Positions 46,993-55,908 of a DNA stretch of 64,000 bases are shown one piece after another (the first letter of the stretch is position 1; each line of letters opens with the position of its first letter). Origin of the DNA: Glycomyces harbinensis. GTDB lineage: Bacteria; Actinomycetota; Actinomycetes; Mycobacteriales; Micromonosporaceae. The stretch lies in the NCBI RefSeq assembly GCF_900101745.1, contig NZ_FNAD01000014.1, positions 1 through 64,000 of the forward strand, in the 5' to 3' direction. The position numbers were made by a program, and so were the translations under genes. The notes beneath the pieces are model-generated. The model was not told where the DNA came from. It ran no database searches and saw nothing but the letters and a program-made list of their open reading frames with translations.

Positions 46993-47013
46993 TGACAACG
47001 ATTTTCGTTACCA
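46993..47013. promoter_or_regulatory. Zur-type operator upstream of the anchored-repeat zinc operon
   Basis: The 21-base inverted repeat TGACAACGA-TTT-TCGTTACCA has seven of nine positions matching between the arms (TGACAACGA against TGGTAACGA). It has the A/T-rich, ACGA-centred layout of actinobacterial Zur sites. It lies 39 bases before the ATG of the first repeat protein, in an AT-rich island that is the probable promoter. Confidence 0.75.
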
Positions 47014-47052
47014 TGAGTTGGACGCTCGCCCCCCGACCGACAAGGAACCCCG

Positions 47053-48897
47053 ATGGCCCCCGCTCGCTCACGCCCGCGCCCGGCGCTGCTCGCCGCCGTG
47101 CTGTTGCTGCCACTGGCCTGGCCCTCCCCGGTCGCGGCCGAGCCCGTCGGCGACCGCACCCTCCTGTCCGTCGGCCACACCGACGCGATGCAGGTCTATA
47201 TGGACGGCGACCGCCTCGACCTGCGCGTCAAGGACGACACCGGCGCTTCGACGCGCTACCACGACCCCGCCGACGTGCTCTTCCAAGTGCTCCCCGAGGC
47301 CGAGACGGCCATACCGGGCGGCGGCATTTGGGACTTCATCGGCGACGCCGGCGACCCGATGTGGATGCTGCCGCTCACCCAGGACCCGAACCTGCTGTGG
47401 CCGGGTTGGAGCACTGAGCCGATCGCCAAGGGGCAGTTCAAGAACGACAAGATCTCCCTGAACCTCGTCGACGTCTCCGGCCCGGGCGACGCGGTCCTGT
47501 GGACGGTGCGGAACTTCGGCGAGCCCACCCTCTTCGCCTCCTCGCGCGACGGCCTGCCCGACGCGATCCCCGTCGGCGTCCCCGCGCACGTCCACGCCTT
47601 CTGGGCGTTCACCGCCGAAGGCGCCTACACGCTCACCTGGCAGGCGACCGGCACGCTCGCGGACGGCACCGCCGTCACGACCGAGGAGGTCGAGTACCAC
47701 TGGCACGTCGGCGAACTGCCCGCCGATCCCGATCCCGATCCCGACCCCGATCCGACCGACCCCGACCTCCCCGACGAATCCGACCTCGAAGGCCGCCTCG
47801 TCCTCGACGAGGGCCACGTCGACGTCCTGTCGGTCGACGACACCGAGAACGGACTCGACCTGCGCGCCAAGGACGGCACCCGCCTCCACGGCCCGGCCGA
47901 CGTCTACCGCGACCCCGACGACGTGGCCTTCCACGCCGCCCCCGAATCCGAGATCGTCCTGGGGGACCAGTTCGCGAACCCCGGATACGACCAGGTCGGC
48001 GCCCCCGGCGAGACCCGCTGGCACCTCCCCGACACCCAGAAGGACGGCGTCCTCTTCGCCGGCTGGGACACCGCCGAGATCCCGACCGGCGTCCTCGCCG
48101 ACGACGCGGTCGACCTGACCCTCACCGGGTTCAGCGGACCCGGCGAACTCGTCATGCTCACCGTCGACGACTTCGGCGACGCCTCCGTGAAGGTCGACAC
48201 CGCCGACGCGCTGCCGCAGTCGATCGCCACCTCGGCGCGCACCCACGCCCACGCCAACTGGTTCTTCTCCGAACCCGGCGTCTACCGCCTCACCTGGCAG
48301 GCCCGAGCCGAGGCGACCGACGGGACCACGCTGTCGTCGCCGCCCCGGGACTACCTCTTCGTCGTCGGCGAACGGCCCGACGGCGGCGACCCCGACCCGG
48401 ACCCGGTCCTGGAGAACACCCAGACCATCACCGCCGAACTCGACACCGACACCGGCGGCCTGGTCCTCAGCGTCGACCCGGCCGACCGCACCGTCACCCT
48501 CCCGGCGATGACCCTCAGCCCCGACGCCACCCGCTGGTCCACCGCGGGCGACCTGCGACCGGTCACCGTCACCGACACCCGCTCGGCCGACCCCGGATGG
48601 AACGCCACCGCGCAGGTCTCGGCCTTCGTCTCCGGGGAAGACCAGCTGCCGGGCTCCCACCTCGGCTGGCTTCCGACCCTCACTTCCAAAGGCGCCGAAC
48701 AGACCGTGAACCCCGGCCCGGCCGTCGAAGGCCTCCTCGACGGCGGCCCCGGCCTCGCCACCTCTCAACTGCTCGCCTCCGCCGCCTCCGGCGCGGGCAC
48801 CGGCACCGCAGTGCTCCAGGCCGACCTGTTCCTGGACCTGCCCACCGACGTCGAGTCCGGGACCTACACCGCACTCGTCACGTTCACCGCAATCTGA
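47053..48897 (+). CDS. Secreted protein with two anchor-M (actinobacterial surface-anchored) repeats
   Basis: The protein has 614 residues. The signal peptide ends near SPVAA. Repeat 1 (about 35-235) begins LLSVGHTDAMQVYMDGDRLDLRV and closes VPAHVHAFWAFTAEGAYTLTWQA. After an Asp/Pro linker (PDPDPDPDPTDPDLPD), repeat 2 (about 260-450) begins LDEGHVDVLSV and closes ARTHAHANWFFSEPGVYRLTWQA. These match the P_ac_wall_rpt / choice-of-anchor M repeat of actinobacterial ABC-linked surface proteins. The last 160 residues form a further beta domain with no recognised motif, and there is no LPxTG. An AAGGA ribosome site precedes the ATG. First gene behind the Zur-like site; I infer extracellular zinc capture by the GH.D and HxH motifs. 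Confidence 0.85.
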   Translation: MAPARSRPRPALLAAVLLLPLAWPSPVAAEPVGDRTLLSVGHTDAMQVYMDGDRLDLRVKDDTGASTRYHDPADVLFQVLPEAETAIPGGGIWDFIGDAGDPMWMLPLTQDPNLLWPGWSTEPIAKGQFKNDKISLNLVDVSGPGDAVLWTVRNFGEPTLFASSRDGLPDAIPVGVPAHVHAFWAFTAEGAYTLTWQATGTLADGTAVTTEEVEYHWHVGELPADPDPDPDPDPTDPDLPDESDLEGRLVLDEGHVDVLSVDDTENGLDLRAKDGTRLHGPADVYRDPDDVAFHAAPESEIVLGDQFANPGYDQVGAPGETRWHLPDTQKDGVLFAGWDTAEIPTGVLADDAVDLTLTGFSGPGELVMLTVDDFGDASVKVDTADALPQSIATSARTHAHANWFFSEPGVYRLTWQARAEATDGTTLSSPPRDYLFVVGERPDGGDPDPDPVLENTQTITAELDTDTGGLVLSVDPADRTVTLPAMTLSPDATRWSTAGDLRPVTVTDTRSADPGWNATAQVSAFVSGEDQLPGSHLGWLPTLTSKGAEQTVNPGPAVEGLLDGGPGLATSQLLASAASGAGTGTAVLQADLFLDLPTDVESGTYTALVTFTAI

Positions 48898-54273: not shown

Positions 54274-55057
54274 CGACACCCGCACCGACGGCCTCCGCAT
54301 CGACGGCCTCTCGGTGAGCCTCGGCGGCCGCCCGGTCCTCGACGGCGTCGACCTCGCCGTCGCCACCGGTGAGACCGTCGGCCTCATCGGACCCAACGGC
54401 GCCGGCAAGACCACGCTCCTGCGCGCCGTCCTCGGCCTCATCCGACCCGACGCCGGCACCGTCGCCACCGGCCCCGGCCGACCCGGCTACGTCCCGCAGA
54501 AGCACGAGTTCACCTGGGACTTCCCGATCACCGTCCACGGCGCGATCCTCAACGCCCGCACCAGCACCCGCCGGCTCGACCGATTCACCGCCCGCCGAGC
54601 GGGCCGAGCCTCCAAGCCCGGTCGCGGGGGAGGACCGGCCGACCGCGAGGCCGCCGCCGAAGCCCTCGAACGCGTCGGCCTCACCGACCTCGCGGGACGC
54701 CCCGTCGGCGAGCTCTCCGGCGGCCAGCGCCAGCGCGTCCTCGTGGCCCGCGCCCTCGCCCGCCGACCCCGGCTCCTCCTGCTCGACGAGCCCTTCACCG
54801 GCGTCGACGTCCCCACCCAGGAACTCCTGACCGGCCTGCTGACCCGGCTTGCCGAGGAGGGCACCGCGATCCTCATGACCACCCACGACCTGGCCCAGGC
54901 CCGCGCCACCTGCACGCGCATCTGCCTGCTCAACCGCACCGTCGTCGCCGACGGCGCCCCCGAGGACCTCACCGACCCCGACCTGTGGCTGCGCGCCTTC
55001 GGCGTCGCGGCCTCGGGCGAGCTCAAGGCGCTCCTCGCCGGAACGGAGTCCACATGA
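54263..55057 (+). CDS. Anchored-repeat-type ABC transporter ATP-binding protein (ZnuC-like)
   Basis: The 264-residue ATPase has Walker A GPNGAGKTTLLRA, signature LSGGQRQRVLVARAL, Walker B LLLLDEPFTGVD and H-loop TTHDLAQ. An insertion of about 35 residues between the Q-loop (VPQKHEFTWDFP) and the signature contains a basic stretch (RFTARRAGRASKPGRGG) not usual in ZnuC. The sequence fits the TIGR03771 group. It energises import of zinc through the next gene's permease. Confidence 0.9.
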   Translation: MRADDTRTDGLRIDGLSVSLGGRPVLDGVDLAVATGETVGLIGPNGAGKTTLLRAVLGLIRPDAGTVATGPGRPGYVPQKHEFTWDFPITVHGAILNARTSTRRLDRFTARRAGRASKPGRGGGPADREAAAEALERVGLTDLAGRPVGELSGGQRQRVLVARALARRPRLLLLDEPFTGVDVPTQELLTGLLTRLAEEGTAILMTTHDLAQARATCTRICLLNRTVVADGAPEDLTDPDLWLRAFGVAASGELKALLAGTEST

Positions 55058-55908
55058 TCGAATGGCTCACCGAACCGTGGACCCACGTGTTCATGCAGCG
55101 CGCCTTCGCCGTCGCCGTCATGTCCGCGGTCGTGTGCGTCGCGGTGGGGGCCTTCGTGGTCCTGCGCGGCATGGCCTTCATCGGCGACGCCGTCGCGCAC
55201 GCGGTCTTCCCCGGCGTCGCGATCGGCTTCGTCCTGAACATCAACCTGTCCTTGTCCGGCGCGGTCGCGGGCGTGGCGACCGCGCTGGCGATCGTCCTCA
55301 TCAGCCAGACGCGAAGACTCAAGGAGGACACGGTGATCGGGATCTTCTGGGCCGCCGCGTTCGGCCTGGGGATCGTGGTCGTCTCCACGCAGTCGTCCTA
55401 CACCGGCGACCTCGCCTCGTTCCTGTTCGGGCAGATCCTCGCGCTCGACGACGGCGACGTGGTCCTGGTCGGGGCGGTGGGCGCCGTGCTCGTGCTGGCG
55501 ACGTTCCTGCTGCGCCGCCAGCTCATCGCCGTCAGCCTCGACCGCGAGACCGCCCGCGCCTCGGGCCTGCCGGTGCTCGCGCTCGACATCGCCCTCTACG
55601 TCATGGTCACCGTGGCGATCGTGATCGCGCTCCAGGCCGTCGGGAACATCCTGGTGCTGGCCCTGCTGGTGACGCCCGCCGCCGCGGCGCGGCTGGTCAC
55701 CGACCGGCTCGGCCCGATGGTCCTGGCCGGGTGCGCGGTGGCCGCGTTCGGAGCGGTGGCCGGGCTGTACCTGTCCTTCTACTACAACCTCGCGGCCGGA
55801 GGGCTCATCGTCCTGGTGATCACCGGGGTGTTCCTCCTGGCGTGGCTGTTCGCGCCCCGGCACGGCGTCATCGCCCGCTTGACGGGACGGCGCAGGGCGG
55901 CCGCCTGA
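55054..55908 (+). CDS. Anchored-repeat-type metal ABC transporter permease (ZnuB-like)
   Basis: The 284-residue permease has about eight membrane helices of the ABC-3 family: FVVLRGMAFIGDAVAHAVFPGVAIGF, then IGIFWAAAFGLGIVVVS, ASFLFGQILALDDGDVV, and the loop ETARASGLPVLALDIALYVMVTVAIVIALQAVGNILVLALLVTPAAAARL that contacts the ATPase. It fits the TIGR03770 group. ATGA overlap with the ATPase stop. Last gene of the eight-gene unit. Confidence 0.9.
   Translation: MIEWLTEPWTHVFMQRAFAVAVMSAVVCVAVGAFVVLRGMAFIGDAVAHAVFPGVAIGFVLNINLSLSGAVAGVATALAIVLISQTRRLKEDTVIGIFWAAAFGLGIVVVSTQSSYTGDLASFLFGQILALDDGDVVLVGAVGAVLVLATFLLRRQLIAVSLDRETARASGLPVLALDIALYVMVTVAIVIALQAVGNILVLALLVTPAAAARLVTDRLGPMVLAGCAVAAFGAVAGLYLSFYYNLAAGGLIVLVITGVFLLAWLFAPRHGVIARLTGRRRAAA

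Follow-up and report, generated by a model that had tools for sequence, protein, structure and literature searches.

We analyzed a 64,000-nucleotide stretch of DNA from Glycomyces harbinensis (contig NZ_FNAD01000014.1, positions 1 to 64,000; hereafter the window) and found eight genes, all in one direction (47053-55908), preceded by a strong Zur-type operator. These genes probably form a Zur-repressed zinc-acquisition operon, in which choice-of-anchor M (ChoM) zinc binders are partly held on the cell by a tether made of a WxL-like domain and a WxL-interacting protein (WxLIP); we put the probability of this reading at roughly 0.7. The gene content, the operator and its conservation, the ligand residues, the pairing of ChoM-WxL with WxLIP genes and its recurrence, and the conservation of an intercistronic hairpin were all observed by computation. 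Overall, the zinc system is a known one and its mode of anchoring a new variant. New with respect to the literature that we found are the recurrent ChoM-WxL/WxLIP pairing and a conserved hairpin dividing the operon, both of which a preliminary description of the same DNA had missed. The source genome, 6.17 Mb in 35 contigs, is Glycomyces-like.

The operator was scored with a small matrix built from four C. glutamicum Zur sites, plus their complements, that are printed in PMC2823685 (this report, like PMC6711530, PMC12445094, PMC10599100, PMC9772566 and PMC12537917 below, is cited for the available part of its text). The matrix gave 21.3 at 46990-47010, to which no strand is assigned, while no other non-overlapping position in the 64 kb scored above 7.0. 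The preliminary description had placed a 21-base Zur-type inverted repeat at 46993-47013, 39 bases before the genes. The register of the literature lies 3 bases to the left, so that the ATG at 47053 is 42 bases downstream of it, and each of the two 21-mers matches its own reverse complement at 14 of 21 positions. A Zur box stands in the equivalent place in all seven Glycomyces relatives (scores 16.3-20.3), and thus in 8/8 loci with the window, which bears the repeat out. The loci of these relatives were fetched with gene 4 as the query, so that the presence of a WxLIP in them adds no support of its own, whereas the Zur box, the WxL fusion and the ABC genes count as independent evidence. Across 34 loci, 29 have a box scoring at least 14, and in 27 such a box lies within 500 bp upstream of a ChoM or substrate-binding protein (SBP) domain, as do 39 of the 50 boxes in these loci. 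We rejected a chance operator on the score of the runner-up and because none of 680 shuffled locus copies reached 14.

The rest of the genome also points to Zur control. Among its three Fur-family matches, the protein on contig C6 has as its best relatives in the PDB 7vo0 (E 2e-47), 3mwm and FurB 2o03 (1e-40). We take 7vo0 and 3mwm to be the Zur protein of S. coelicolor. The gene of this Zur-like regulator adjoins genes that read as znuA, znuC and znuB from their translations and one TIGR03772 match. A pattern scan of the genome, allowing up to 3 mismatches, gave 14 hits versus 5 for the reversed pattern. By matrix, the promoter flanked by a COG0523 (cobW) gene and a bL33 gene scored 21.6, a place with an ABC-3 permease gene on one side and an ATPase gene on the other 19.7, and a place on C26, between genes reading as carbohydrate-type ABC, 15.0; three more pattern hits scored only 3.9, 7.4 and 11.1, and the box at znuA (18.2) was found by the matrix and missed by the pattern. 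The cobW, L33, ABC-3 and FecCD genes near boxes were confirmed by Pfam. Zinc-starvation-type genes lie upstream of the operon in three of the seven relatives, the three whose upstream genes were scanned: cobW in L007 and L008, and cobW, bL28 and bS14 in L013, the promoter of these last three carrying a box that scores 26.0. The preliminary description had claimed Zur control and had proposed a genome scan with an actinobacterial Zur motif. The scan returned boxes at the znuA, cobW/bL33 and ABC-3 genes, and these boxes, the Zur-like regulator and the operator in 8/8 loci speak for the claim. Zur is thus predicted, from sequence, to bind at 46990-47010.

Two further boxes in the genome were noted. 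One at L023 (G000 C13:20652-20671, matrix 19.5) is Zur-like and without a clear gene; another at L025 (G000 C21:79876-79895, 17.7) is Zur-like and upstream of a FecCD-type permease gene, and possibly marks a further metal or metallophore system under Zur. We also noted an element, CATATGCGCATCTnCTTGGTATTCAAcGTCACTCG, at 46877-46909, about 110 bases upstream of the Zur box of the operon. It is a single copy in the genome within 3 mismatches, and by eye it is present in 8/8 Glycomyces loci, most weakly in L010 and L011.

Genes 5 to 8, all on the + strand like the rest of the operon, exceed the curated NCBIfam cut-offs of the anchored-repeat ABC system (TIGR03769-03773), as the preliminary description had recognized. 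Gene 5 (51371-52867; TIGR03772, 585.1 bits vs 350.45) encodes a ZnuA-type substrate-binding lipoprotein, its lipobox seen by eye, with an inserted ChoM region; gene 6 (52864-54273; TIGR03773, 248.7 vs 190.3) one intact and one degenerate ChoM copy and an LPTTG sorting signal; gene 7 (54263-55057; TIGR03771, 280.9 vs 268.8) the ABC ATPase; and gene 8 (55054-55908; TIGR03770, 320.3 vs 296.8, and PF00950) the ABC-3 permease. All six TIGR03769 matches of the genome fall within the operon, and ChoM is matched by genes 1, 2, 3, 5 and 6. Gene 1 (47053-48897; NF038134, 325.2 bits; TIGR03773, 235.2, over its cut-off) encodes a signal peptide, two ChoM domains with HxD and HxH (HMM hits at 47164-47712 and 47800-48369) and a C-terminal WxL-like domain. 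Gene 2 (48921-49559, TTG start; NF038134, 135.6 bits) and gene 3 (49568-50191; 103.7 bits) each encode a signal peptide and a single ChoM domain, and no C-terminal anchor was seen for them in a census of protein tails. Since gene 1 carries the WxL-like domain, only two repeat proteins are free, and not the three stand-alone secreted ones previously described. The genes were also said to be co-directional and mostly overlapping. All eight are co-directional, and overlaps occur at four of the seven junctions (4, 4, 11 and 4 bases), the other three being gaps of 23, 8 and 88 bases.

Every full-length ChoM domain of the window, five in all, carries both HxD and HxH; gene 5 has the two motifs in reverse order, and the degenerate first copy in gene 6 has neither. 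Of 234 HMM hits, 152 were at least 165 residues long, and 145 of these carry both motifs. We aligned 66 of the 72 non-redundant domains, leaving out six low-scoring ones, which biases the result toward conservation. Both His residues of HxH are invariant in this alignment, and H and D in HxD reach 90% conservation or more. Residues H63, H328, H394 and D470 of gene 5 align with the ligand positions of 5w56, giving a set of His, His, His and Asp/Glu. We take 5w56 to be AztC, with zinc bound at these positions; against the NCBIfam AztC model, gene 5 scored 236.3 bits, below the cut-off of 350. These ligands favor zinc as the cargo, as had been proposed, and the link of the family to zinc is already in print. 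The ChoM model (pLDDT 97.5) had no fold match in the PDB at E ≤0.001, the best TM-score by query length being about 0.39, so that function cannot be read from the fold; with no close solved structure found, ChoM would be a useful structural target. Profiles of ChoM and of the WxL-like domain matched nothing better than E 0.2 among PDB sequences. The census of C-termini, which used a simple rule and counted frames cut by locus ends, divided 141 ChoM-bearing open frames into 34 SBPs, 32 with an LPxTG-type signal and a transmembrane (TM) stretch, 31 with a TM stretch only, 19 with a WxL-like domain and 25 with no anchor seen.

The WxL-like domain of gene 1 (48418-48894) has 159 residues. In the aligned set to which it belongs, 13 of 25 homologues match WxL at E ≤0.01 (best 1.2e-6), and no other Pfam family is listed. 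The PF13731 cut-off is exceeded in 3 of 34 genomes: in G624 (L012) by the orthologous protein, and in the other two (G279 C107, G338 C55) by WxL proteins without a ChoM hit. The model of the domain (pLDDT 91.7) weakly matches pilin-type domains (4y2l, E 9.3e-4; FimG 3bfq, TM-score 0.45/0.52) and viral models, which we take as a hint only. Gene 4 (50280-51374, GTG start), which had been called a DUF916-like tether, is more correctly assigned to WxLIP_PGBD, PF06030, with 39.4 bits versus a cut-off of 27.3. All 23 aligned homologues, 8 of them from Glycomyces, match this family, and the profile matches the solved EfmWxLIP1 (9i25/9i1y) at E ~4e-6. By these matches, gene 4 is a WxL-interacting protein, and a C-terminal hydrophobic stretch with a basic tail was seen in it by eye. 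The operon of the window encodes one WxL-like protein, and loci L106 and L112 more than one. The WxL-like domain would contact the WxLIP, and the pair would act as a sortase-independent tether for zinc binders.

The pair recurs elsewhere. A phylum-wide sample was too thin (2 of 246 genomes), and we therefore used a class sample, in which 27 of 394 genomes have TIGR03772. A ChoM-WxL gene followed by a WxLIP gene was found in 11 of the 27; in ten of them no more than 10 kb separates the WxLIP and transporter genes, and in one the WxLIP gene is on another contig. The 11 genomes span four families (f1, f8, f64 and f81), with f81 contributing eight, and in 8/8 of the pair-bearing f81 genomes a box of at least 15 stands at the head of the ChoM-WxL gene. 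In L089, L106 and L107 this box sits in a divergent promoter and may also control the opposite side. A tree was made of 45 WxLIPs, omitting L037, which duplicates the window, and matches of less than about 200 residues. Its 19 ChoM-linked proteins need 3 label changes versus 14.7 in shuffles (0/500 as low); one origin for them is neither shown nor excluded. Where a genome had more than one WxLIP gene, the examination included some of the additional genes (L113-L117). Phylum-wide, a WxL-like frame lies near the WxLIP in 18 of 25 loci with flanks of about 1.5 kb, and the window's own frame, cut off by this flank, counts among the seven misses.

A related arrangement was found in a sister genus in the family of the window. 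Genome G204 (L123:3583-6264) encodes a fusion of HtaA (5.4e-42) with a WxL domain, the latter at 21.3 bits and under its cut-off; a WxLIP gene follows. These genes are divergent from a periplasmic-binding-protein gene, and the genome has no TIGR03772 match at the threshold used; the pair is likely a haem parallel of the zinc tether. As separate observations, L043 (2082-3296) carries a WxL-like domain on a calcineurin-like phosphoesterase (a metallophosphatase by Pfam match) beside a WxLIP, and L041 (2-1270), similar by eye, a phosphoesterase with a WxL-like domain beside a WxLIP.

The 88-base gap before gene 4 folds into a strong hairpin (50210-50257, + strand) with -44.8 kcal/mol and a z-score of -3.43. 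A stem is present at the gap between genes 3 and 4 in all seven Glycomyces relatives (z -1.86 to -5.70); ten core pairs form in 8/8 loci, and three of these show two-sided, compensatory changes. No T run follows the hairpin in the window. On one side of the hairpin are genes 1 to 3, which encode the first three zinc binders, and on the other the tether and transporter genes. The hairpin may be a processing, stabilizing or partial-termination element, and it probably sets unequal levels of the two groups.

Taken together, these data suggest the following scheme. When zinc is scarce, Zur would leave the operator and the operon would be transcribed. With HxD and HxH as ligands, the ChoM domains would capture zinc on the outer side of the membrane, and they would be placed in four ways: free (genes 2 and 3), by the WxL-like/WxLIP pair (genes 1 and 4), covalently by LPxTG (gene 6) and within the lipoprotein (gene 5). 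The gene 1 protein would sit on peptidoglycan through its WxL-like domain, held by the membrane-anchored WxLIP of gene 4. Zinc collected and buffered in the wall would then reach the ZnuA-type site of gene 5 and, from there, the permease and ATPase, an order of transfer that would amount to a zinc relay across the wall.

Several results weigh against this scheme. Five of the 34 loci are without a box of at least 14 (L090, L091 (cut by contig end), L092, L097 and L111), and 16 of the 27 transporter genomes lack the pair, 13 having no PF06030 match and 3 having a WxLIP beside a ChoM-less WxL-like protein. In the window the PF13731 match reaches 22.6 bits, under the Pfam gathering cut-off of 25, and both W-x-L motifs are eroded (PGWNA and VTFTAI instead), with the first Trp retained. 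The HBD (DUF3324) of the canonical WxLIP was not matched in the Pfam lists, where the region following the PGBD is matched weakly or not at all. The genome has two sortase matches, so that LPxTG anchoring alone could suffice. In the 19.5 kb examined, neither a transporter gene nor a Zur box accompanies the ChoM-WxL/WxLIP pair of G226 (L121:7221-10651), a genome outside the class; near this pair there is a transposase gene of IS110 type. Finally, in C. diphtheriae, His-to-Ala proteins were still zinc-responsive in vitro and the loss of znuF/znuG restored growth of a transporter mutant (PMC12445094), and delivery to the transporter is therefore not proven.

These last results bear on a different role, in which surface ChoM proteins sequester zinc, as a reserve or in denial to neighbours, with no hand-over, and the tether only keeps them on the cell. 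ZnuF and ZnuG of C. diphtheriae limited growth when the transporter was absent or when they were over-expressed; the authors themselves name storage as one option, the published mutants fit delivery, storage or sequestration (PMC12445094), and the stand-alone pair of L121 would suit such a store. Set against this, ChoM sequence is also found inside the substrate-binding protein, ChoM genes adjoin ABC genes in 34/34 loci (although the loci were chosen by transporter or WxLIP), and deletion of znuE reduces growth in low zinc (PMC12445094). We consider a store or decoy unlikely.

The tether itself might be a bystander, that is, a host- or surface-adhesion module that shares the operon by chance, since WxL clusters of Firmicutes are described as host-binding platforms (PMC10599100, PMC9772566) and other actinobacterial WxLIP neighbours bear non-ChoM domains. 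The fusion of the WxL-like domain to ChoM in one protein, its recurrence in four families and the box owned by the ChoM-WxL gene throughout the f81 pairs make chance sharing improbable. Manganese or iron as cargo, as in transporters of the MtsA/PsaA type, is suggested by the best PDB sequence matches of gene 5, which are MtsA and other Mn/Fe-type lipoproteins. We regard such a cargo as very improbable, for the third ligand of gene 5 is His (THDAF), as in 5w56, versus Glu in MtsA (TSEGCF), Zur-type boxes recur across the loci, and no DtxR-type site occurs in the window at up to 3 mismatches from the consensus. A Zur-repressed zinc operon with partly tethered ChoM binders is the reading that we retain.

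How zinc passes through the thick Gram-positive wall is an open question, and the 2025 work on C. diphtheriae, in which ZnuF is wall-bound without need of any of six sortases, leaves this retention unexplained (PMC12445094). The Zur-controlled ChoM-WxL/WxLIP pair is a candidate retention device in other actinomycetes, and not for ZnuF itself, which has no WxL domain; we rejected WxL as an explanation there, as ZnuF ends in a TM stretch. We tentatively propose, at somewhat less than even odds, that WxL/WxLIP of actinomycetes is a general sortase-independent tether for nutrient-capture domains (zinc ChoM, and haem-type HtaA in the sister genus), and that the WxLIP holds a zinc-binding WxL protein directly above the transporter as a fixed, Zur-controlled zinc path through the wall. 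If true, this would add nutrient uptake to the host adhesion ascribed to WxL/WxLIP, an anchoring pair best known from gut bacteria and found here in a soil actinomycete. WxL in another phylum is not in itself new, since about 9% of WxL sequences had already been counted outside Firmicutes (PMC9772566). A limited search of the open literature found no link of WxL to zinc or haem uptake; the nearest idea was that of DUF916 genes near a metal-binding Ang-2 domain (PMC12537917).

Zinc as cargo is not new for the family either, and the earlier view that the substrate of the transport core is unproven is outdated. In C. glutamicum, Zur represses cg0040-cg0043, and its sites there were tested in band-shift assays (PMC2823685); in C. 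diphtheriae, zinc and Zur repress dip0438-0444, part of which is annotated as anchored-repeat ABC (PMC6711530); and ZnuE, ZnuF and ZnuG of C. diphtheriae are HxD/HxH proteins whose thermal shifts suggest zinc binding (PMC12445094). The window most resembles C. diphtheriae znuAECB-znuF-dip0445 (ZnuE/F/G; CmrA, CmrA2), a Zur- and zinc-controlled anchored-repeat ABC transporter with HxD/HxH envelope proteins, including one LPxTG-type protein, one two-domain protein without a sortase signal and a ZnuA with the motif in reverse order, as in gene 5. It differs in having one operon instead of two and a WxL domain in place of the TM stretch of ZnuF, and the available part of PMC12445094 mentions neither WxL nor DUF916. 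The C. glutamicum genes likewise comprise Zur-repressed zinc-type ABC genes with a secreted protein, but are a smaller set, for which the available text of PMC2823685 names no WxL/WxLIP. The streptococcal Pht proteins with AdcAII, as recounted in PMC12445094, are also surface zinc-binding repeats proposed to feed a zinc SBP, apparently without sortase; their repeat motif is His-x-x-His-x-His, and WxL does not figure in the available part of that account. The WxL clusters of Lactobacillales and Bacillales (small WxL, large WxL and WxLIP) share with the window a C-terminal WxL-type domain on a modular surface protein beside a PGBD WxLIP; unlike those clusters with their host-binding cargo, the window has zinc-binding ChoM, a single WxL-like protein with eroded motifs and no DUF3324 match.

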